A program made the translations under genes and the position numbers. Positions 4,984-15,013 of a stretch of 15,081 nt of DNA are shown piece after piece; the first letter of the stretch is position 1, and each line of letters opens with the position of its first letter. Source of the DNA: Thermoplasmatota archaeon (lineage in GTDB: Archaea > Thermoplasmatota > Thermoplasmata > RBG-16-68-12 > JAJISG01); assembly GCA_022848835.1 (NCBI GenBank), contig JAJISG010000283.1, positions 1-15,081 of the forward strand, read 5' to 3'. The notes below the pieces were generated by a model. It ran no database searches. It saw only the letters and a list, made by a program, of their open reading frames with translations, and was not told the DNA's origin.

Positions 4984-6306
4984 TTGAAGGTCCTGGCCGT
5001 CGGTGGTGGTGGTAGGGAGCATGCCATCGTTGAGACCCTGAAGAGGAGCGATGCTAGGGTCTTCTCCATAATGAAAAACAGGAATCCGGGGATTGCCAGG
5101 GCCTCGGAGGACTTTTTGCTCTGTGACGAGACCAATGTGGAGAAGGTAGTGGCATGGGCCGCCCGGGTGGGGGTGGACCTGGCAGTCATCGGCCCCGAGG
5201 CCCCCCTGGGATATGGACTGGTGGACCAGCTGGAGGCGGTGAGCATTCCCGTCGTGGGACCCTCCCGAGAGGCGGCCCGGATCGAGCTGTCAAAGGAGTT
5301 TGCCCGAGACCTGATGAGAAGACACGCCATCCCGGGCCTTGTGGAGTACCAGGCATTTGACGACATCGCGGATGCAAGGCGGTACATAAAGGAGGTGAAC
5401 TACCCCATCGTGGTGAAGCCCATCGGCCTAACTGGAGGAAAGGGCGTGAAGGTCATGGGGGATCACTTTCACACCAAGGAGGAGGCCCTAGCATACGTCC
5501 AGGAGGTGCTAGAGAGGAGGATTGGCGGGCAGTCCCGAGTACTCATCGAGCGTAGGGAGGATGGGGAGGAGTTCTCCCTCCAGGCCTTCACTGATGGGGA
5601 GCATCTCGCACCCATGCCATTGGTCCAGGACTACAAGAGGGCTGAGGAGGGCGACCGGGGACCCAACACCGGTGGCATGGGTTCCATCTCTGTGGTGGAT
5701 GGTCTGCTTCCCTTCCTACGCCGGGAGGACTACGAGACGGCGGTCACCATCATGAGAAAGGCCATTGAAGCGATGAGGTCAGAAGGAGTGCCCTATAAGG
5801 GTATCCTGTACGGGGGTTTCACATCAACACCTTCCGGGCCAAAAATCCTCGAGTTCAACGCTCGCTTCGGCGACCCGGAGGCGATGAACGTCCTCCCCAT
5901 ACTGGAGCATGACTTCTTGGAGGTCCTCTGGTCTATCGTCGATGGGAAGCTGAAAGAGGAGGTATCGTTCCGAAGGAAGGCGACGGTCTGCAAATACGTC
6001 GTCCCAGAGGGCTACGGTACGAAGCCTCTGGCCGACCAGGAGCTGCACGTTGACGAAGCGGCTATCCAGCAGAGGGGGGCCATCCTCTACTACGCATCTG
6101 TCGACGAGCGGGATGGAAGGATCTTCACCACCACCTCTAGGGCACTCGCTGTAGTGGGCGTGGCGGATGACCTGGGTTCGGCCGAGTCGTTAGCGGAAGA
6201 GGGACTCGCCCATGTCCGTGGTCGAGTCTTCATGCGTCACGATATTGGGAAGTCTTCGCTGGTGAAGCAGAAGGTGGAGAGGATGAGAGCCTTGAGGGGT
6301 GGATGA
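4984..6306 (+). CDS. purD: Phosphoribosylamine-glycine ligase (GAR synthetase)
   Basis: ATP-grasp enzyme joining phosphoribosylamine and glycine to give GAR, step two of purine synthesis. The 440 residues equal the usual length. Seen in order: N-terminal GGGGREHA (7-14), IGPEAPLGYG (69-78), VVGPSREAARIELSKEFA (90-107), the ATP-grasp loop KPIGLTGGKGV (145-155), EEFSLQAFTDG (195-205), DRGPNTGGMGS (224-234), YKGILYGG (271-278) and LEFNARFGDPEA (289-300), which carries the metal-binding Glu and Asn. The NPGIARAS segment is the form I associate with archaeal enzymes. The start is TTG 4984: no other in-frame start lies upstream, and the GGGG phosphate loop needs this position. Its product feeds PurN in the opposite arm. 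The 3' end overlaps the next gene by 8 bases. Confidence 0.97.
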   Translation: MKVLAVGGGGREHAIVETLKRSDARVFSIMKNRNPGIARASEDFLLCDETNVEKVVAWAARVGVDLAVIGPEAPLGYGLVDQLEAVSIPVVGPSREAARIELSKEFARDLMRRHAIPGLVEYQAFDDIADARRYIKEVNYPIVVKPIGLTGGKGVKVMGDHFHTKEEALAYVQEVLERRIGGQSRVLIERREDGEEFSLQAFTDGEHLAPMPLVQDYKRAEEGDRGPNTGGMGSISVVDGLLPFLRREDYETAVTIMRKAIEAMRSEGVPYKGILYGGFTSTPSGPKILEFNARFGDPEAMNVLPILEHDFLEVLWSIVDGKLKEEVSFRRKATVCKYVVPEGYGTKPLADQELHVDEAAIQQRGAILYYASVDERDGRIFTTTSRALAVVGVADDLGSAESLAEEGLAHVRGRVFMRHDIGKSSLVKQKVERMRALRGG

Positions 6307-6949
6307 ATTGCCGCTTCTGGATGACAAAAGAGCCATGGAGCTGAACGGGATCCTCGACGATATCGAGAGTGAGATGGAGGAGAAGGACACGGTGAGGGAG
6401 CTGGCCATGAAGTCTAGTCGGGCCATGGCTCGACTGTCTGTCAACGCCATAGGGGGCCTCCATCGAGATGACGATGTGAGGAAGCTGCTAGAGGAGGCCA
6501 GGGAGGAGGCCCGCAGGTTGAGGAGCCTACTTCAGGAACACCCCGATGTCTACTACTCCGGCTTTGTGGAGAACGCCCACCAGGAAGTGACGGAGGCAGC
6601 CATTGCCCACAGCCTGATTACGGATTCGCATCTGCCTCGCCCCGAGGATCTGGCCGTCACAGGCAGGGCATATGTGCTGGGCCTTGGGGATGTAGTCGGC
6701 GAACTGAGGAGATACGCCTTGGAGAGGCTGAAGGAGGGAGAGGTGAAAGTCGCCCTGGAGGCCCTAGAGGCCATGGAAACTATCTATGAGGGCCTCATGA
6801 GGTTCAACTATCCCACGGCCTTGATGGCCATCAAGAGGAAACAGGACATCGCGCGAAGCCTTCTGGAGAAGACGCGGGGGGAGGTGGTCGTCGCGCTTCG
6901 GAGCTTCGAGCTGGAGAAGCGGCTGGGTGAGTTGAAAGAGAGAGAGTAG
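6299..6949 (+). CDS. Archaeal translin/TRAX-family protein (probable RNA-binding endoribonuclease)
   Basis: Translin and TRAX are all-helical proteins that form octameric shells; TRAX and some archaeal members cleave short RNAs. The 216-residue sequence is almost entirely helical and charged. It shows the family's GFVENAHQEVTEA (88-100), comparable to F...QEYVEA, and GLGDVVGELRR (128-138), comparable to the LxDxxGELRR helix. Glu96, Glu99 and Asp131 are placed like the acidic catalytic residues of TRAX; that alignment is by eye. The GTG at 6299 overlaps the purD end by 8 bases; TTG 6308 behind GAGGGGTGG, or ATG 6335, are possible alternative starts. Its link with purD is probably only transcriptional. 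It ends directly against the convergent CARDB gene, with no space between the stops. Confidence 0.85.
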   Translation: MDELPLLDDKRAMELNGILDDIESEMEEKDTVRELAMKSSRAMARLSVNAIGGLHRDDDVRKLLEEAREEARRLRSLLQEHPDVYYSGFVENAHQEVTEAAIAHSLITDSHLPRPEDLAVTGRAYVLGLGDVVGELRRYALERLKEGEVKVALEALEAMETIYEGLMRFNYPTALMAIKRKQDIARSLLEKTRGEVVVALRSFELEKRLGELKERE

Positions 6950-7720
6950 CTATTTCTTGGAGGTCCTGCGCCTGCGGATAGCGGCGCCTACGAAGAAGGC
7001 CGCGACCAACGCACCCACAATGCCCAGGATTATCCAGAGGGGGTTGATGGGATCTGCCTCCTTCACAAAGGTGATCCGCACGACGATATCACCCAGGGCG
7101 GGATCGAGCTCACCGTTCTTGTTGAAGTCGACCCAAATCTCCAGGCTGTGGGTTCCCGCAGAGAGTCCGACGGGAAGATACTCGAAGATGATCTCCTTGG
7201 TCTCCCCTGGCTTCAGGCTCTCCAGCACAGTCTCGGCTACCATCTCTCGGTCGATGTGGAGAAAGACGGGCACATCCCGGACCTCTACCGCACCCCTGTT
7301 CACAATATTGGCAGAGACCCTCAGGGGCACGAGCACCGAAATCTTCATGCTGGAGGATCCCTCGCTCCACCTATCATCCTTGGAGGAGTTGACCTCGACG
7401 ACGACCTCAACCTCCTGCTCCGTCAGGGGCATGGTAGCATTGAATGTGAAGGTCTTATTGGAGGAGCTTCGCTCCAAGGGGGAGTCCTCAAGGGGGGAAG
7501 CGCCCACCAGGTCCCCTCCTCGAAGATATGCCTTGAGGGCGAAGGTCCCATTCTCCTCCGCAGGGCCTCCCGCTACAGTGACGTTGATGGTCACACTGTC
7601 TCCTGTTCCAGCAACGTCGACGCCTGAGATGAATACGGCGACGGTGCCCTGGGACTGGGAGTATGCGGGTAGAAGGGCTGTGAGTAGGATGAGAGGGATG
7701 ACGATGATAGCGGCCCTCAT
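6950..7720 (-). CDS. Secreted CARDB-domain protein with C-terminal membrane anchor
   Basis: 256 residues. It has an N-terminal signal peptide (about 1-22, hydrophobic core IIVIPLILLTALL), a first beta-rich region (25-130), a CARDB-like beta-sandwich (about 130-220) with the VxANIVNRGAVEV strand and LKPGETKEI turn, a transmembrane helix (about 227-247) and a cytoplasmic RRRRTSKK tail. CARDB domains are extracellular adhesion or packing modules. Five N-glycosylation sequons lie outside the membrane: Asn46, Asn57, Asn88, Asn94 and Asn111. DFNKNGELDP (198-207) resembles a calcium-binding loop. The ATG overlaps the stop of the STT3 gene as ATGA, so its translation is probably coupled. It may be a surface substrate or accessory partner of the oligosaccharyltransferase; this is inferred from position only. 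Confidence 0.85.
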   Translation of the reverse strand: MRAAIIVIPLILLTALLPAYSQSQGTVAVFISGVDVAGTGDSVTINVTVAGGPAEENGTFALKAYLRGGDLVGASPLEDSPLERSSSNKTFTFNATMPLTEQEVEVVVEVNSSKDDRWSEGSSSMKISVLVPLRVSANIVNRGAVEVRDVPVFLHIDREMVAETVLESLKPGETKEIIFEYLPVGLSAGTHSLEIWVDFNKNGELDPALGDIVVRITFVKEADPINPLWIILGIVGALVAAFFVGAAIRRRRTSKK

Positions 7721-10700
7721 CTACGGGACCTCCTGCGCCGCCTCCTGATCAGGAGGATGGCTACGATAGCCGCTGCGGCAGCCAAAATCCCGTATAGGAA
7801 GACGGGAAACTCAGGGGCACCGAGCCTCAAGCTCCTACCCTCTACTTCTATCTCTTCTACGGGAATATCAAGGGATGGGAAGGCGAGCTCCACCTCGAGG
7901 AAAGCCTCCACTTCGCGGTCACCCTCCGAGAAGGCCAGTAGCACGGCCCTAGAAGCACTGACTGCTCCCGGGATCTCCAACCTGAGGGTCACGTTCGTTG
8001 AGTCTTGGGCAGGCACCTCAACACCCTCGACCCTCTCCTCTTGGCTCTCTCCCTTGTACAGCAGCTTCGGTTGCCAACCCTGAGTTGCCAAGGTCTCGGG
8101 GTTGATCAGGACAAGAGTGAAGGTGTCCCCGCCGTTCCCCTCGTTGAGTATCTCCAGCTCATACTCCAGGGCCTGGGGGGATAGGGCTGGAGGTTGGTCT
8201 GAGAGTTGGAGGCTGATCCCCCTTTCATGACGGATGCCGATGTCCACCGCCACCGAGTCCCGCACGTTTGTGTCGGACGTGGAACGCACCTCGATCATGA
8301 GTGCGTCGTGATCCACCCTGGCGTCCTCGGGAGTAGAGATTGTGACCCCAACGATTGCCTCGTTGTCCTCTCCGAACGGAAGGGTCACTACTCGGGGCTC
8401 GAAATCGAAGCTCCAGCCCTCAAGAGTCGCGTCCAAGCTGAAGCTGTCCGCCACGTTCCCTATGTTAGTGACAGTGAGGGAATAGGCGACCACATCACCA
8501 GCATCCACGTTGGCCTTCTCGGATTGGTCCCATCGAATCTCCACGGCCGGCAGGTCGATTCTTGAGAGCTGCAGGTTGAGCGTCGTACTCTCCCTCAAAT
8601 CCAGCATTTCTATGAAGCTGTAATCCACCTGCACTCCTCTCTCCAGCTTCTGTACTCCTCCTGTGACCCTGTACTGACCCGTGGGGAGATATACCGCGAA
8701 GATTCCCGACTCGTCTGTCGTGAAGTCTGCGCTGGCTGTTGAGGCGAACTCGATGGTCGCCCTCTCCCTGCTACCGTCGTCTAGGGAGACGATGCCGGAG
8801 ACCCTGTAACCGGGCTCCAGCTGAATGGTGGCCTGGTTCCCCACGTAGGGGACAACCTCGAGCGTCGTCAGGTTGACGGACTTACCGCTCTCCCTGTAGG
8901 CGTAGACGTCATAGATTCCAGGGCCCAGGGAGATATCGAAAAAGCCAGCCACGTCAAACACTGCGTCCAAGGCGGTCTCATTGGCCGCCTGGAAGGTGAT
9001 GCGAGCAGATACAGTCTGCCCTGAGAGGAGAACTGCGCCTGTGAGAGTGGAGTTGTCCAGAGATCGGGATACCTCCAGATCGAGTGTCTGTGACTCGCCC
9101 ACAACCACGGCGATCTCCTGGCTCAAGGAGTATCGAACGAATCTGAGGGCCTTATCGATTCGATCCGCACCGCGCCACTCTATGGAGATCTCATACGTCC
9201 CTGGTCCCAGGGCCGCAAGATAGCTGCCGGAGGCGGTCGTATCCAACGTCAGCCTCGCTCCGTCCGTCCGGAGGAAGTTGAGGGATATGCTGTTGGTGAC
9301 TGGTCTGCCTGCTACCCTCACAGTACCGTCCAGAACGGCCGCCTCGTCCAAGGAAGAGGTGAAGTTGGTTGGTGAGATGATGCTAGTGTGGTTCAGGAGG
9401 AGGTATCTCTTGCCCTCGACCTGGGTGGTTGCGAAGAGGGTGTAGGTGCCCGGTCTCAGGTAGGCCGTGAAGTTTCCATCCACGGGGACTGAAGCCTCCT
9501 CAGCCCCGCTGAAGGAGAGGTTCCCCTCGAAAGGACTCCCCTCTAGGTCCAGATACCCATCCACCCTCACCCTCCTGACGACCTCCAATCGGAGGGAGTC
9601 CACACTCTTCCCCAGGGGAACTCTGAGGGTCTCCTCCTCGAGGTTCTGAAGCCTCACATCGTCGCCACCATCCCCGATCCCGTCATCCACGACCACTCCG
9701 TAGAGTCCAGGGAGAAGTTCTAGGGAGAAGAGACCCGCCGAGTCTGCTGTCGCCGAGGCAAGAACGGCACCATCTCCCAGGGGCGTGAAGAGGATCGGTG
9801 TCCCCTCAGTCTCCAGGGTATCGAGGGGCACAAGGTTCCCCTCGACCCGGACGCGCTCCGGCCTGAGTTCGACCACGCTCTGGTTGGCGAGTCCCGCAGG
9901 TGTGAAGGGTCCTAGGGAGAGGGGCTGAAATCCCCTCTCCTCGATGGATAGGGTATACTCAACGCTTGACAGCAGTGGGGCTCCGTACTCTCCCTCCTCT
10001 CGCGCGAACACCGAGAAGGCGTTTCCGGAGGCGTCAGAGAGACGGATGCGGACCCCTTCCAGCCCCTCCCCTGGGTCCCAGGTTCCATTGCCATTCAGGT
10101 CGTGGAAGAGACGTCCTTCCACCAGTGTTCCCTGTGACAGCGAGATGTCGAGCGTGGCAGACTCATCGAGCATCAGGGGCGCCACATACTGCTCATCCTG
10201 GTGGAGGGACCAGACCCTGTAGGAGCCCCGCGACAGATATATGAGGAAGAGGCCATCCTCATCAGCGGTGACGGTACGGGTAGCACCACCTACCTCGAAA
10301 GTGATGGTCGCTCCCTCGGCTTGGGCACCGCCTTCTTGGGTAACGTGGCCATCCACCCTGACCGCCGGCTCCAAGCTGACTTCTAGACTCTGGGCATCTC
10401 CCCCGCTCACTGTGAGGCTCCCTAGGAAGCTGTAGACCTTCCCCCCATCAAAGTGCAGAGAGTACGCGTCATATGTCCCCTCAGGAAGTTTCGTCTGGAA
10501 TCGACCGGAGGAATCCGTTGTGAGGGAGACGGCGGACCCACCCTCTCGGCTGCGAAGGGTAAACGTCACGAAAGGCGTAGGTCGAAATGAGATGACCGTC
10601 CTTACGGTGACATCTCCCATGGGCCTCACCACCAGGTCCCTCGTGGGTGTCGTGCCCGCGGTGATTCTCACCTTCTCCTGGAGGGAGCTCCTCTCCTCCA

Positions 10701-13700
10701 GGGTGGCCCCTAGGGTATAGTTTCCCTCGAAGAGACCCTCCAGGGTATAGTTTCCCTCCTCATCGACGTCGACCTCTGTCCTGAGGCCGGTGGCCTCCTC
10801 CACCAGCTCTACCAGAGCCGCTGCGGCAGCCTGCCGGAACTCATCCACAACCTTTCCAGAAAGTCCGCCAGAGGGAACTGGTAGGTCCTGCGTCTTGACC
10901 TCCCCGAGAAGGAGGGATACATTCGCCTCCGCAACTCCTCTGCCCTCCCTCATCAAGAAGACGCTGTAGCTGCCTGGGGTCAGATCGGCTATCTCGTACT
11001 CCCCGTCAGAACCGGTCAGCACCCGTGTGACCTCTCCTCCGAGGGGGTCCAGGACCTCAACTTCCAGACCCTCCAATCCCTCCTCCTCGGCTTCCATGAT
11101 CGAGTTCCCATTGAGGTCTAGGAAGGCCTTGCCCACGATGGCGGAGCCCTTCACTCGGAAGTTCTCCTCTACGATGTAGTCGAGGCGACCGTCGCCGTCG
11201 ATATCGAGGGGGATCCGCGCAGCCTGGTCATCCCTTATCTCAAGACTCTTCAGTGCCAGTATCACGCTGCCGACCTGGGTGCGGTTATCCAGATCCCCAA
11301 CCGAGGCAACTACGCGTACGTCCCCAAAGGGAAGGATCACCTCATAGAAGCCCGCAGAGTCTGTCATGGCAACGTCGTGAGGGATGGAGAGCTCATCCAG
11401 GACGGTGATCCTGACGCGCTCTAGAGGTCTGCCCTCCTCCGTGGTGACCGCTCCCCTGAGAATTGCCCCGTCGTAGTACTCGAGGATGACAATTCCCTGG
11501 AGCAGATTTCCGGCAGGAGTGGTGTCCAAAGTGCCTTCCGCCTCCCCCCTCTGGATCCGCTCCGCAAGCTCCGCGGTATCCAGTAGATTCATTGCGGTCC
11601 AGTCCCCCGTTCGGTTGGCGACTTCCTCGGGAGGGTACGGGTTGAAGTACGCCGTTCTGTAGACCAGCTTGAAGTGTTTCAACATCCAGCCGTGAAGGGG
11701 AGTCTCACTCCTCAACGGACCCGAAATTCCGGGCAGTCCATCGTCATCAAGGCCCACATCGCTGCCTTTCTGACCGAAGAATATCCTGTAGAGCATGCTG
11801 TCGTAGAACATCTCCCTGTACTCGATCCGGATGTTGGATATCTGAGCCGTGGGGGGGACCTGGTCCAGGTCGAATTCCCCCAGATTCGTCTCCGCAACTA
11901 GGCGATAGAAGTCGACGGGAATGCTTCGCAGGTCGGGCAACTCCGCCGTCCTGTGGTCGGTGAGCTTGACAGGAGCGTAGAAAATCCCGGTGTTAGTACC
12001 TGAGAAGGGCACCAGCCGGGAGTCGACCGCAAAGTATCCGACGGAGGTGCCTGTCCCCAACCGAAGGTCCCTGTACAGCTCTGCCTGGCCATCTACGTCC
12101 AGCTGCTCAGTGAAGAGCGTCTTGAGGAAGATGACCCGCGCATTCCTGCCCGATATGAGAATATCCCACTCTCCGAAGCGTTCGGGCTCAGACCTAATCA
12201 GCGGGATGTAGGCTGAGGGCCTCAGGAGGGCATCCGCAACCACTACCGGGTCAAGCCCGCTTCTCTCCAGGGCCTGTTTGACAACCTCGCTTAACTGCCT
12301 ACCATGGCGTATGATGTCCCCTTGGAGAAGGCGTGTGTTCAAGATGGCGATGCCCTCGTTCTCGCTCTGGGCCAGAAGGAAGGCGCCAGAAAATTCGTAT
12401 CCGTTCTGGAAGTTGTCCGCCACTGCGGGATGTCTGCCTTCCTGTATGGACTCGAACCCGTAGTCCCACCAGCTGAGGAAAGCTGGACGGTCAGAGAATG
12501 GAAGTATCTCCGCGTCCTGCTGGCGAAGCCACTCCCAGGCCTGTGGGAAGTACCTAGTCTTGAGGGGGAGCGTGTAGCCAAAGGCGCCGAAGTAGAAGAG
12601 CTGACCCTCCTGATAGTCCGGCGGCCGCAGGAACGCTGGGATGCTATTGTACACCTCTAGCTCGAGCTCCTGTTTCTTCTCGAAGGGCACGGCGGCGTCG
12701 ACGGCGTACCAGGTGTTTGGCAGTATGAGAAGGAGCGCCACGAAGAGGCCTCCAGCTATGTGCCTCAGCTTGATACCCTTCCTCAGGGCGGTCAACCTGC
12801 TCCCGCCCGTGGCAGCGACGGCTTTCCTCACCTGCTCGAAGCCCAGTCTCTCGACTATCATCACGGTAATCCACGCGGAGGTGATAGCGAAGGCTGGAGA
12901 GGCATTGAATAGGAAGCGGACGGCTGACATGGCCATGAAAATCGCCGCAGCACTCCAGGCTAGGACGAAGAGGTAGTCTGATCTCGGCCTTCGGATGAAC
13001 TGGATGGCCATCCAAGCGATGCCGAGGAGTGAGAGCCAGTAGGTGACGGCTCCGAATGATAGGATGGCCTGACTGAGTTCTGGTGGCTGAGCCTCCGAGA
13101 TGGTCTGGTACACCTTGTCCGGTGCGAAGTATCCGAAGCCAGATGTTAGGGCCTGGCCGACCACGGGACTGTAGATGGAAGCGATGGCCAAGCCTACCAC
13201 GAAGCCGAAGACTATGGATGGAATGACCAGCATCCAGGGAAGCCGATGGAAGACAGTAACGAGGAGGCCCAGACCTAGGGCGGCGGCGAAGAGGATCAGG
13301 GGCACATCGAACCATGTGCGGACGAAGCCCGTGGCGACGTAGTAGGGAGCCGCCATCAAGAGGGCAGTTCCCAGGGTCACCGTGAAGACGAGGAGAACGC
13401 CGAGGGGATCCTGATTTCTGAGCTTATGGACCAGCAGCTGCACGATGAAGTAGGCGATGATTACTACGGGAACATAGGCCCACCCCTGCCAGGTTAGGGC
13501 CACCGTGGCTACTGAAGCGCCCGCCATGATGGAGAAGAGAACGGTTCTCCTGCTCTCCAGAAGCAGCTGCTTCAGTCCACGGTAGATGGCGGTGGGACTG
13601 GCCCAGTTTCCCACCCATCTCTTCTCCTTCAATTCGCTCAGGGCCCTCAGAAAGAAGTAGAAGGAGGTGACCGCGAAGAAGAGGACGAGGGCGTCGTGAT

Positions 13701-14184
13701 CACCGTTGCTCAGGGGCGACCTCTGGATATGGGCCGCCAGGATCGCCAGGAAGAAGGCGGCTACCAGACCAGCCCGCTGTCCGAAGATGGCCTTTCCCAG
13801 GAAGTATGTGGGGAATATGGTGAGGGCACCCCAGACGGCAGTGGAGAACAGAAAGCTCTGCCCTATGCCAAGCTGAATGGATCCCTGGAGGTGACCGAGG
13901 AGCATGCCGGTCAGGGCAACGCTCCAACCGTAGATGGGCGGCCTGGGGTTGTTCATCCCGACAGGGAAGTTGAGCATGTTGTCCCGGAGGAGGTGCTTTC
14001 CCGTCGTGACGATGTGCTCAATGGTCCACCCGTAGTAGTAGGCATCCGATCCGCCTGATACGAGGAAGTCCTTGATGGCCAGGTCATAGGCGAAGTACGC
14101 CCGGATGAAGAGGGCGAGGGCGAAGATGCCCCCTAGAATGAGTGTGAGGTTAACCCTCGACTTGATTGACCTCTCTTCTTCCAA
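7717..14184 (-). CDS. aglB: Giant AglB/STT3 oligosaccharyltransferase with a long repeat-rich extracellular extension
   Basis: Transfers lipid-linked glycan to Asn of N-X-S/T sequons outside the membrane. Core (1-900): about 13 membrane helices to residue 490; Asp47 in GGSDAYYYGW (first metal-binding motif); NGDHDA at 160-165 (second); TISE at 361-364 (TIXE sequon-positioning motif); WWDYG at 572-576. Extension (about 908-2100): roughly eleven beta-sandwich units of carboxypeptidase-regulatory/SdrD-B type, each with a (V/L)xGxV opening strand, a D.(A/S)G.(F/Y) turn and a PGxY or similar end, then two NEW3-like domains (1880-1985 and 1990-2100). Tail: PEF (2124-2126), one membrane helix (about 2128-2146) and an Arg cluster. 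Usual STT3/AglB proteins have about 600-1000 residues. The reading frame is unbroken. The start is TTG 14184 behind AGGTGGAG; no in-frame ATG precedes residue 70, and the Asp47 position supports the start. First gene of an operon with the CARDB gene. Confidence 0.95.
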   Translation of the reverse strand: MEEERSIKSRVNLTLILGGIFALALFIRAYFAYDLAIKDFLVSGGSDAYYYGWTIEHIVTTGKHLLRDNMLNFPVGMNNPRPPIYGWSVALTGMLLGHLQGSIQLGIGQSFLFSTAVWGALTIFPTYFLGKAIFGQRAGLVAAFFLAILAAHIQRSPLSNGDHDALVLFFAVTSFYFFLRALSELKEKRWVGNWASPTAIYRGLKQLLLESRRTVLFSIMAGASVATVALTWQGWAYVPVVIIAYFIVQLLVHKLRNQDPLGVLLVFTVTLGTALLMAAPYYVATGFVRTWFDVPLILFAAALGLGLLVTVFHRLPWMLVIPSIVFGFVVGLAIASIYSPVVGQALTSGFGYFAPDKVYQTISEAQPPELSQAILSFGAVTYWLSLLGIAWMAIQFIRRPRSDYLFVLAWSAAAIFMAMSAVRFLFNASPAFAITSAWITVMIVERLGFEQVRKAVAATGGSRLTALRKGIKLRHIAGGLFVALLLILPNTWYAVDAAVPFEKKQELELEVYNSIPAFLRPPDYQEGQLFYFGAFGYTLPLKTRYFPQAWEWLRQQDAEILPFSDRPAFLSWWDYGFESIQEGRHPAVADNFQNGYEFSGAFLLAQSENEGIAILNTRLLQGDIIRHGRQLSEVVKQALERSGLDPVVVADALLRPSAYIPLIRSEPERFGEWDILISGRNARVIFLKTLFTEQLDVDGQAELYRDLRLGTGTSVGYFAVDSRLVPFSGTNTGIFYAPVKLTDHRTAELPDLRSIPVDFYRLVAETNLGEFDLDQVPPTAQISNIRIEYREMFYDSMLYRIFFGQKGSDVGLDDDGLPGISGPLRSETPLHGWMLKHFKLVYRTAYFNPYPPEEVANRTGDWTAMNLLDTAELAERIQRGEAEGTLDTTPAGNLLQGIVILEYYDGAILRGAVTTEEGRPLERVRITVLDELSIPHDVAMTDSAGFYEVILPFGDVRVVASVGDLDNRTQVGSVILALKSLEIRDDQAARIPLDIDGDGRLDYIVEENFRVKGSAIVGKAFLDLNGNSIMEAEEEGLEGLEVEVLDPLGGEVTRVLTGSDGEYEIADLTPGSYSVFLMREGRGVAEANVSLLLGEVKTQDLPVPSGGLSGKVVDEFRQAAAAALVELVEEATGLRTEVDVDEEGNYTLEGLFEGNYTLGATLEERSSLQEKVRITAGTTPTRDLVVRPMGDVTVRTVISFRPTPFVTFTLRSREGGSAVSLTTDSSGRFQTKLPEGTYDAYSLHFDGGKVYSFLGSLTVSGGDAQSLEVSLEPAVRVDGHVTQEGGAQAEGATITFEVGGATRTVTADEDGLFLIYLSRGSYRVWSLHQDEQYVAPLMLDESATLDISLSQGTLVEGRLFHDLNGNGTWDPGEGLEGVRIRLSDASGNAFSVFAREEGEYGAPLLSSVEYTLSIEERGFQPLSLGPFTPAGLANQSVVELRPERVRVEGNLVPLDTLETEGTPILFTPLGDGAVLASATADSAGLFSLELLPGLYGVVVDDGIGDGGDDVRLQNLEEETLRVPLGKSVDSLRLEVVRRVRVDGYLDLEGSPFEGNLSFSGAEEASVPVDGNFTAYLRPGTYTLFATTQVEGKRYLLLNHTSIISPTNFTSSLDEAAVLDGTVRVAGRPVTNSISLNFLRTDGARLTLDTTASGSYLAALGPGTYEISIEWRGADRIDKALRFVRYSLSQEIAVVVGESQTLDLEVSRSLDNSTLTGAVLLSGQTVSARITFQAANETALDAVFDVAGFFDISLGPGIYDVYAYRESGKSVNLTTLEVVPYVGNQATIQLEPGYRVSGIVSLDDGSRERATIEFASTASADFTTDESGIFAVYLPTGQYRVTGGVQKLERGVQVDYSFIEMLDLRESTTLNLQLSRIDLPAVEIRWDQSEKANVDAGDVVAYSLTVTNIGNVADSFSLDATLEGWSFDFEPRVVTLPFGEDNEAIVGVTISTPEDARVDHDALMIEVRSTSDTNVRDSVAVDIGIRHERGISLQLSDQPPALSPQALEYELEILNEGNGGDTFTLVLINPETLATQGWQPKLLYKGESQEERVEGVEVPAQDSTNVTLRLEIPGAVSASRAVLLAFSEGDREVEAFLEVELAFPSLDIPVEEIEVEGRSLRLGAPEFPVFLYGILAAAAAIVAILLIRRRRRRSRR
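10712..10758 (-). repeat. Short tandem DNA repeat, 30-base period, inside the STT3 extension
   Basis: A 17-base unit (AGGGTATAGTTTCCCTC on the + strand) occurs at 10712-10728 and 10742-10758. It encodes two GNYTL stretches at residues 1144-1148 and 1154-1158, so both copies carry an N-glycosylation sequon. The exact DNA match suggests a recent small duplication. Confidence 0.7.
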
Positions 14185-14298: not shown

Positions 14299-14475
14299 AT
14301 GAAGCGGGATCTCATGGAAATCCTCTGCTGTCCCGTCTGCAAGGGTGATCTGGAGCTCGAAGTGGATGTGGAAGAGGAGGAGATCTTGGAGGGGAAGCTG
14401 ATCTGTAACAGCTGCAACGAGGTCTACGAGATAAAGGAGGGTATCCCCAACCTCCTCCCCCCAGATCTTAGATAA
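14299..14475 (+). CDS. Trm112-like zinc-binding protein (methyltransferase activator family)
   Basis: 58 residues from ATG 14299. The family pattern is clear: hydrophobic LMEIL start, CPVCKGDLEL (Cys11, Cys14), an acidic spacer, CNSC (Cys36, Cys39), then YEIKEGIPNLLP. Trm112 proteins bind and activate SAM-dependent methyltransferases acting on tRNA, rRNA and release factor; archaeal Trm112 does this for several partners. Many one-domain members are of unknown partner, so the exact role is open. The frame also extends back to ATG 14257, but those 14 residues are not family-like and lie across the predicted TATA box. Its last 8 bases overlap the convergent tsr3 gene. The presence of a second RNA-modification gene next door fits a translation-related job. 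Confidence 0.88.
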   Translation: MKRDLMEILCCPVCKGDLELEVDVEEEEILEGKLICNSCNEVYEIKEGIPNLLPPDLR

Positions 14476-15013
14476 ATTCCGCCTGGGCCTTGACGACCTC
14501 TCGGCTGTCCCTAGCTTGGCGATACAGTCTGAGAGGCTCGGCGTTGAGCAGTAGGAAAATGGGTCCCCACTTGAACTTCGACAAGAGTTCCGCTGCTTGG
14601 TCCTCATCGCCCATGATGTACAGGGCCGCTGCCAGGGCCTCAACGCTTGAGAGCAGGACTGGCTTTCCGTAGTTGATCGGGTTCGCAGCTACCAAATACG
14701 GCAGGGCCCTCTCTCTGTATCCTCTCATCCTGGGAAGTCTGCCTGACTTCCATGATGTATCCAGGACACAGAGGCCCAGTCTCCTGCACCTCGCCTCGTC
14801 CTCTCTGGAGAGGGCTACTTCAGCATTGGGATTGAGGACCACTGCTCCCTTAGGCAGCTCGTGGGGCCGCGACACCAGGCGAATCAGTCCATGGCGAGCC
14901 AGTTTCTTAGACGTGCATCTCTTGGGATCACAGAGCTTGTCATGATAGGCCAGGAGTGCAACCATCGTGTCTCTGTCCTGCGGACCACAATAAATAAGGC
15001 GTTCAGAGTTCAT
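14468..15013 (-). CDS. tsr3: Tsr3, 18S/16S rRNA aminocarboxypropyltransferase (DUF367)
   Basis: Tsr3 transfers the aminocarboxypropyl (acp) group of SAM to the hypermodified uridine-derived base of small-subunit rRNA. The 181 residues match archaeal members. Signature segments are all visible: HDKLCDPKRCTSKKL (24-38), VVLNPNAEVALSREDE (58-73), LDTSW (84-88, usually DCSW), LPYLVAANPINYGKP (104-118), SVEALAAALYIMG (123-135) and FKWGPIFLLLN (147-157). ATG 15013 overlaps the stop of an upstream minus-strand gene as ATGA, so it is downstream in an operon and shows no promoter of its own. The 3' end overlaps the Trm112-like gene by 8 bases, tail to tail. Confidence 0.96.
   Translation of the reverse strand: MNSERLIYCGPQDRDTMVALLAYHDKLCDPKRCTSKKLARHGLIRLVSRPHELPKGAVVLNPNAEVALSREDEARCRRLGLCVLDTSWKSGRLPRMRGYRERALPYLVAANPINYGKPVLLSSVEALAAALYIMGDEDQAAELLSKFKWGPIFLLLNAEPLRLYRQARDSREVVKAQAEFI

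Follow-up and report, generated by a model that had tools for sequence, protein, structure and literature searches.

A giant STT3 protein with a thirteen-unit arm and a linked partner gene in a class of Thermoplasmatota

Why should an oligosaccharyltransferase chain of an archaeon extend over 2155 residues, when the archaeal AglB described so far is, to our knowledge, a lone subunit about 600-1000 residues long? The question is raised by a stretch of 15,081 nucleotides (the window), contig JAJISG010000283.1 of a Thermoplasmatota archaeon (GenBank assembly GCA_022848835.1), in which a single unbroken minus-strand frame of 2155 codons at 7717-14184, with a TTG start, encodes an STT3/AglB core, 11 transthyretin-like units, two NEW3-like units and a C-terminal membrane anchor. 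Comparative analysis revealed such a long arm to be the norm in the class, as sampled, and common within the phylum. We lean slightly towards the view that the product is an oligosaccharyltransferase that carries accessory domains of its own and has a dedicated second subunit, encoded by an adjacent gene (the partner), in which the first arm unit, D1, would be docked and unfolded secreted chains would be steered.

Catalytic core, arm and anchor in one chain

The features of the locus are as follows.

12655..14184, minus strand: STT3 membrane core, residues 1-510, with 12 hydrophobic segments (crude hydropathy cut) and the motifs GGSD, GDHDA and TISE
11479..12654, minus strand: extracytoplasmic catalytic globular region, residues 511-902, with WWDYG at 572
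11140..11478, minus strand: arm unit D1 (transthyretin-like), residues 903-1015
8548..11139, minus strand: arm units D2-D11 (transthyretin/Cna-B-like; D2 and D6 nearest SdrD_B), residues 1016-1879
8215..8547, minus strand: NEW3/Ig-like unit N1, residues 1880-1990
7855..8214, minus strand: NEW3/Ig-like unit N2, residues 1991-2110, without a Pfam match of its own
7717..7854, minus strand: C-terminal membrane helix (2128-2146) and basic tail, residues 2111-2155 and stop codon
6950..7720, minus strand: partner gene, 256 amino acids, its start overlapping the STT3 stop by 4 nucleotides

The predicted product is an N-oligosaccharyltransferase and the sole STT3 protein detected in its genome (94.2% complete), where PF02516 was matched once, by the core of this chain at 46.0 bits against a cut-off of 24.5. 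The acidic motifs, TIxE and WWDYG lie at positions 44, 161, 361 and 572; across 23 STT3 chains D47, T361, E364, W572, W573, D574, Y575 and G576 are invariant and D164 is nearly so. A profile built from 23 relatives matched the solved archaeal oligosaccharyltransferase 3waj with an E value of 2.4e-32. The membrane core and all of these motifs are shared with the AglB/STT3 structures 3waj and 5gmy, whose chains have 875 residues, whereas the window chain, of 2155, adds an arm of 13 domains and a C-terminal anchor and is accompanied by an overlapping partner gene. Of the strong hydrophobic segments indicated by hydropathy, 12 fall within residues 1-510 and the last, at 2128-2146, precedes a basic tail; the arm therefore begins at the catalytic domain and has its end in the membrane. 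A sequence-only reading of this DNA had proposed an STT3 core and a large outside arm in one chain, with about eleven repeat units and two NEW3-like domains, and the unbroken frame, the motifs and the domain scans agree with it; the C-terminal anchor is an addition.

Among NCBIfam families, the core was most similar to TIGR04154 (archaeo_STT3, associated with the archaeosortase A system), at 212.6 bits and under the cut-off of 450, and the match within residues 498-1015 stops at profile position 583 of 831. Archaeosortase A (TIGR04125), which was matched in 10 of 31 genomes (in nine of these over the cut-off), gave no match in the window genome, and no link to archaeosortase was found there.

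The arm itself was assigned largely to generic sandwich families. In a unit-by-unit Pfam scan, CarboxypepD_reg or SdrD_B was the top match for 9 of the 11 transthyretin-like units; D2 and D3 alone reached a curated cut-off by themselves, and D7 and D8 gave no match. The cut-offs of the MSCRAMM/Sdr families were not reached (SdrD, 13.2 of 2500 bits; SdrC, 10.3 of 1700 bits). An AlphaFold2 model of the arm, made from 72 sequences, had a mean predicted local distance difference test score (pLDDT) of 92.5 and a predicted template modelling score (pTM) of 0.50, and the matches returned by structure searches include carboxypeptidase, SdrD, pilin and sialidase sandwich domains, among others.

A long tandem array of transthyretin-like sandwiches with a C-terminal anchor is also the plan of NOMO, a component of the BOS complex in the multipass translocon of the endoplasmic reticulum, and were the arm a NOMO homologue, the fusion would tie the oligosaccharyltransferase to the translocon. 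In favour of such homology, NOMO2 was the best sequence match of the family profile among solved structures (E 1.9e-33, collinear over NOMO2 270-567). The NOMO_5th model scored 42.9 bits over the whole window chain and 34.9 bits over L146, a long-armed chain without partner gene, against a cut-off of 27, with no stretch passing alone; at an E value of 0.001 it found only 2 of 60 class genomes, in both cases in STT3-sized frames (2225 and 2154 amino acids). However, single arm units scored at most 16.9 bits and preferred generic models (a weak test, as no more than 2 of the 11 units reach even the generic cut-offs by themselves), none of the 60 genomes passed the cut-off in the genome search, and the structure search did not single NOMO out. 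NOMO differs further in that it is not known to carry a fused catalytic part. A search for TMEM147, the BOS partner, matched 0 of 60 genomes, and the control genomes were also without a match. A strict relation to NOMO was thus left unsupported by the unit-wise, genome and structure searches, and we regard it as improbable; the arm may be called built like NOMO, and membership in that family is not claimed.

Spread of the long chain and of its partner gene

Within 61 genomes of the class, 40 of the 58 PF02516 matches lay in frames of 2053-2413 amino acids, and at least 7 of the remaining 18 run off a contig end; intact class chains are as a rule about 1.8-2.4 thousand amino acids long. The size of the window protein, which had been taken as exceptional, is therefore ordinary for the class. 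The same fusion, sought in related genomes, occurs class-wide, and its carriers by name include Methanomassiliicoccales, DHVE2 group archaea, Candidatus Sysuiplasma and Candidatus Halarchaeoplasma. These arm searches covered the genomes of this phylum; the best 80 of 553 confirmed loci were taken from an alignment-based genome scan, and an earlier scan of named genomes with the window protein alone as query had given no match. The window genome is split into 286 contigs, of which the window is one entire 15-kb piece, a setting in which an assembly join, a missed stop or the misreading of two genes as a single one might be suspected. Relatives carry the same chain in dozens of other assemblies, single-contig genomes included, which refutes a join or missed stop near residue 900 and makes an artefact of any of these kinds hardly conceivable. 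By this recurrence, recent fusion and assembly join are both excluded as origins of the giant STT3.

Across the phylum, STT3 frame length is typical of the lineage. Among the matches listed, frames are about 1.2 thousand amino acids long in f32 (f1, f2 and so on being family codes), 1.3-1.43 in f40, 2.35 in f33 and f34 and 2.5 in f37; in f41 and f47 they are commonly 3.1-3.28, and the shorter ones there may include contig-end frames. We refer to f41 and f47 as Poseidoniia-like and to f11 and f22 as Thermoplasmatales-type, both unconfirmed labels guessed from genome size and chain length. D1 is present in 18 of 19 chains of other lineages, weakly (12-31 bits) in many shorter and Poseidoniia-like ones; the exception, L155, is a chain of 916 amino acids and of the TIGR04154 type, which it matches in full at 600.3 bits. 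Its genome (G081) has two STT3 genes, the second (L156) encoding 1288 amino acids with a short arm. A C-terminal hydrophobic segment was found in 86 of 87 chains of the partner-bearing lineages and in all 19 long-armed chains from elsewhere, but in none of the 13 short ones. The 87 comprise 85 class and two f34 chains of 2040-2420 amino acids, without N and with their 3' end, a range that leaves out diverged class chains shorter than 2040, such as L160-L163. Whether the long arm arose once is left unsettled by the STT3-core tree, in which 12 of 37 inner branches are open, L155 and others form long branches and the class splits into two pieces because L041 stands apart. Four Poseidoniia-like chains of 3175-3275 amino acids (L140-L143) carry an N-terminal extension (372 amino acids before the TIGR04154 match in L140), and a purD-like frame, not a partner gene, adjoins their STT3 gene on the same strand.

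The partner family (52 sequences) has a fixed layout of signal peptide (by eye), N-domain, CARDB domain, membrane helix and basic tail. The window partner is a small protein that crosses the membrane once and has two beta-sandwiches on the outer side. Its second domain (PF07705, 35.5 bits against a cut-off of 22.7 in the window) is shared with CARDB proteins at large, from which the family differs in this layout and in its tie to STT3. An AlphaFold2 model of the partner (pLDDT 92.8, pTM 0.76) returned transglutaminase-type, complement-type and CARDB sandwiches in structure searches; no known oligosaccharyltransferase or translocon subunit stood out among the matches listed.

In 120 phylum genomes, the partner profile matched all 39 class genomes at E values of 2.3e-22 or lower (in G121 over positions 4-177 only). 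Two of the 81 genomes outside the class, both f34, reached 7e-30 or lower; the best of the rest reached 3.9e-18, the weaker matches mostly cover the CARDB half only (among the matches listed), and two genomes had no match. At the loci, the partner lies directly downstream of STT3 in 99 of 101 assessable class cases and in both f34 cases, the profile match beginning between -3 and +192 nucleotides from the STT3 stop in the class. Neither class locus without a partner is an intact STT3 locus: the longest frame of L056 is another gene, and the frame of L129 is interrupted. Loci were told apart by their last 150 residues, with close relatives kept in the count; a further 21 of 122 class loci were set aside as having the STT3 end off the contig or a broken frame; and 19 of the 101 had been fetched through the partner, so that the count started from STT3 is 80 of 82. 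Outside the class and f34, no partner gene lay next to STT3 at any of 32 loci (0 of 17 and 0 of 15 further), hand-chosen from the phylum-wide PF02516 list.

Searches started from the partner gave the same association. Twenty loci, hand-chosen and mostly f11 or f22, were fetched from 41 genomes with a strong partner match, and all 20 have an STT3 frame directly upstream; 19 of these frames measure 1818-2360 amino acids, and that of L167 is truncated by the contig end. Half of them (10 of 20) lie in genomes without any PF02516 match to STT3. In several f11 and f22 genomes (G053, G144 and G093, for example) the giant frame is missed by PF02516 and was found only through the partner gene, so calls of absence from Pfam alone are unsafe there. 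The 4-nucleotide overlap recurs in 53 of 78 placed loci, the start having been set at the earliest start codon from -14 onwards, a rule that may bias the placing towards -3. Most likely, given this linkage, the partner is a second, structural subunit.

In two loci (L041 and L048) the partner is 351-356 amino acids long and has an extra C-terminal stretch with further hydrophobic segments (by eye). Behind the STT3 pair, at 4984-6949 of the window, lie purD and a translin-family gene (PRK14562 type) in convergent orientation, an arrangement that recurs in many class loci; upstream of the STT3 gene, at 14468-15013, is a gene for a TSR3/DUF367 rRNA aminocarboxypropyltransferase.

Constancy and glycosylation sites of the arm

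Adhesive stalks usually vary in repeat number. If the arm were adhesive, a spacer or a tie to the surface coat, possibilities that the sequence-only reading had considered, and had no more than a chain in common with the enzyme, such variation might be expected here. Over 34 chains, however, the number and order of units are nearly constant, and unit lengths have standard deviations of only 1.1-14.1 amino acids. Mean pairwise identity in these chains is 0.42 in the membrane core, 0.437 in the catalytic region and 0.422 in D1, which is thus conserved like the catalytic region, and 0.22-0.30 in D2-D11, N1 and N2. Units also keep their individuality, since 8 of the 13 window units match their own position best in 24 or more of the 33 other chains: D1 and N2 do so in all 33, N1 in 31, D10 and D11 in 28, and D6, D7 and D8 in 24-26, followed by D2, D3, D4 and D9 (21-23) and by D5, the weakest (10). 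In eight of eight close pairs, some of which share a chain, omega was 0.21-0.35 for D2-D11, and it was 0.05-0.23 for the membrane core, indicating that the arm is under purifying selection. By these measures the arm looks like a fixed structure under selection and not like a variable adhesin. Both of its ends lie at the membrane by hydropathy, and the partner gene tracks the enzyme; a stalk is accordingly disfavoured, and we give it little credence.

The arm is also rich in potential glycosylation sites. The window arm has 14 N-X-S/T sequons where shuffling predicts 4.8, and the reversed motif occurs 5 times against 5.0 expected. Over 88 chains the mean z for the arm is 4.78 (reversed motif, 0.54), against 0.05 in the membrane core and 1.59 in the catalytic region; the partner has 3.20 over 67 sequences (reversed motif, -0.03), and six cytoplasmic neighbours show no excess and a single site in total. 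The enrichment in both arm and partner places the two outside the cell, where they are probably substrates of glycosylation themselves. The same enrichment would be expected if the enzyme chain doubled as a cell-coat glycoprotein, glycosylating its own arm and the partner, with the decorated arms forming part of the envelope. Nevertheless, an enzyme is not expected at the abundance of a coat, and sequon enrichment may be general to extracytoplasmic proteins of N-glycosylating archaea, the comparison here being with cytoplasmic neighbours only; we consider a coat role unlikely.

Proposed accessory domains in and beside the enzyme

In lineages without the partner gene, a similar module appears on the STT3 chain itself. 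The CARDB and helix part of the partner profile matched the chain end in 12 of 19 long-armed chains of this kind, namely in all nine from f33, f35, f37, f38 and f48 and in 3 of 10 Poseidoniia-like ones, and in none of the 87 chains of partner-bearing lineages or the 13 short chains; L184, L186 and L189, whose frames run off the contig, were dropped from this test. For L146 Pfam concurs, with CARDB at 2467-2573 (50.4 bits). This complementary pattern hints at fusion or fission between STT3 and partner.

We return to the oligosaccharyltransferase with accessory parts of its own, towards which we lean. The arm and the partner would sit on or around the catalytic domain in the manner of accessory subunits. 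D1 would pack against that domain and, because of its conservation, is probably part of the working catalytic unit. Held at the membrane by both ends, the arm, together with the partner, would keep an unfolded secreted acceptor near the active site, and both would probably become glycosylated in turn. We infer co-translation of the two genes and physical association of their products, along with D1 docking and substrate steering. Of the three ideas that the sequence-only reading had offered for the arm, the substrate-presenting scaffold fits best, its steering role being the presumptive part.

Several observations weigh against this proposal or against parts of it. D2-D11 are less conserved (0.22-0.27) than the core (0.42-0.44), and chains of f11 and f22 have a strongly diverged arm. 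With a pTM of 0.50, the arm model does not fix the placing of domain to domain. Sequon z values of single arms span -0.16 to 12.76, so some arms show no excess. A conserved gene pair may mean co-expression only. As regards fusion or fission, 7 of 10 Poseidoniia-like chains have no CARDB and anchor match, the N-domain of the partner was found in none of the 31 STT3 chains tested, and the partner profile finds many CARDB and helix ends elsewhere in the same genomes; as such an end is common among archaeal surface proteins, the complementary pattern could arise without true fusion or fission.

More broadly, we propose, tentatively and with rather less assurance, that the class and one further lineage have a two-subunit oligosaccharyltransferase with accessory domains of its own and an obligate single-pass partner, that other lineages carry the CARDB domain and anchor on the STT3 chain, and that the whole is an independent counterpart of the accessory subunits of the eukaryotic oligosaccharyltransferase, with the arm and basic tails possibly serving to dock it to the translocon. 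The parallel, drawn with ribophorins, OST48 and others, is one of how the parts would work, STT3 being joined in both cases by additional beta domains on the outer side and by small single-pass proteins; none of these eukaryotic subunits was found for the partner among the matches listed. The partner represents a conserved family of membrane proteins with no function in the libraries searched, and is a candidate component of the oligosaccharyltransferase. If this reading is true, the class-wide giant form, with its fixed arm and linked second gene, would open the accessory subunits of archaea to direct tests in cultured organisms, and would provide an independent evolutionary experiment on what the accessory subunits of eukaryotes do.

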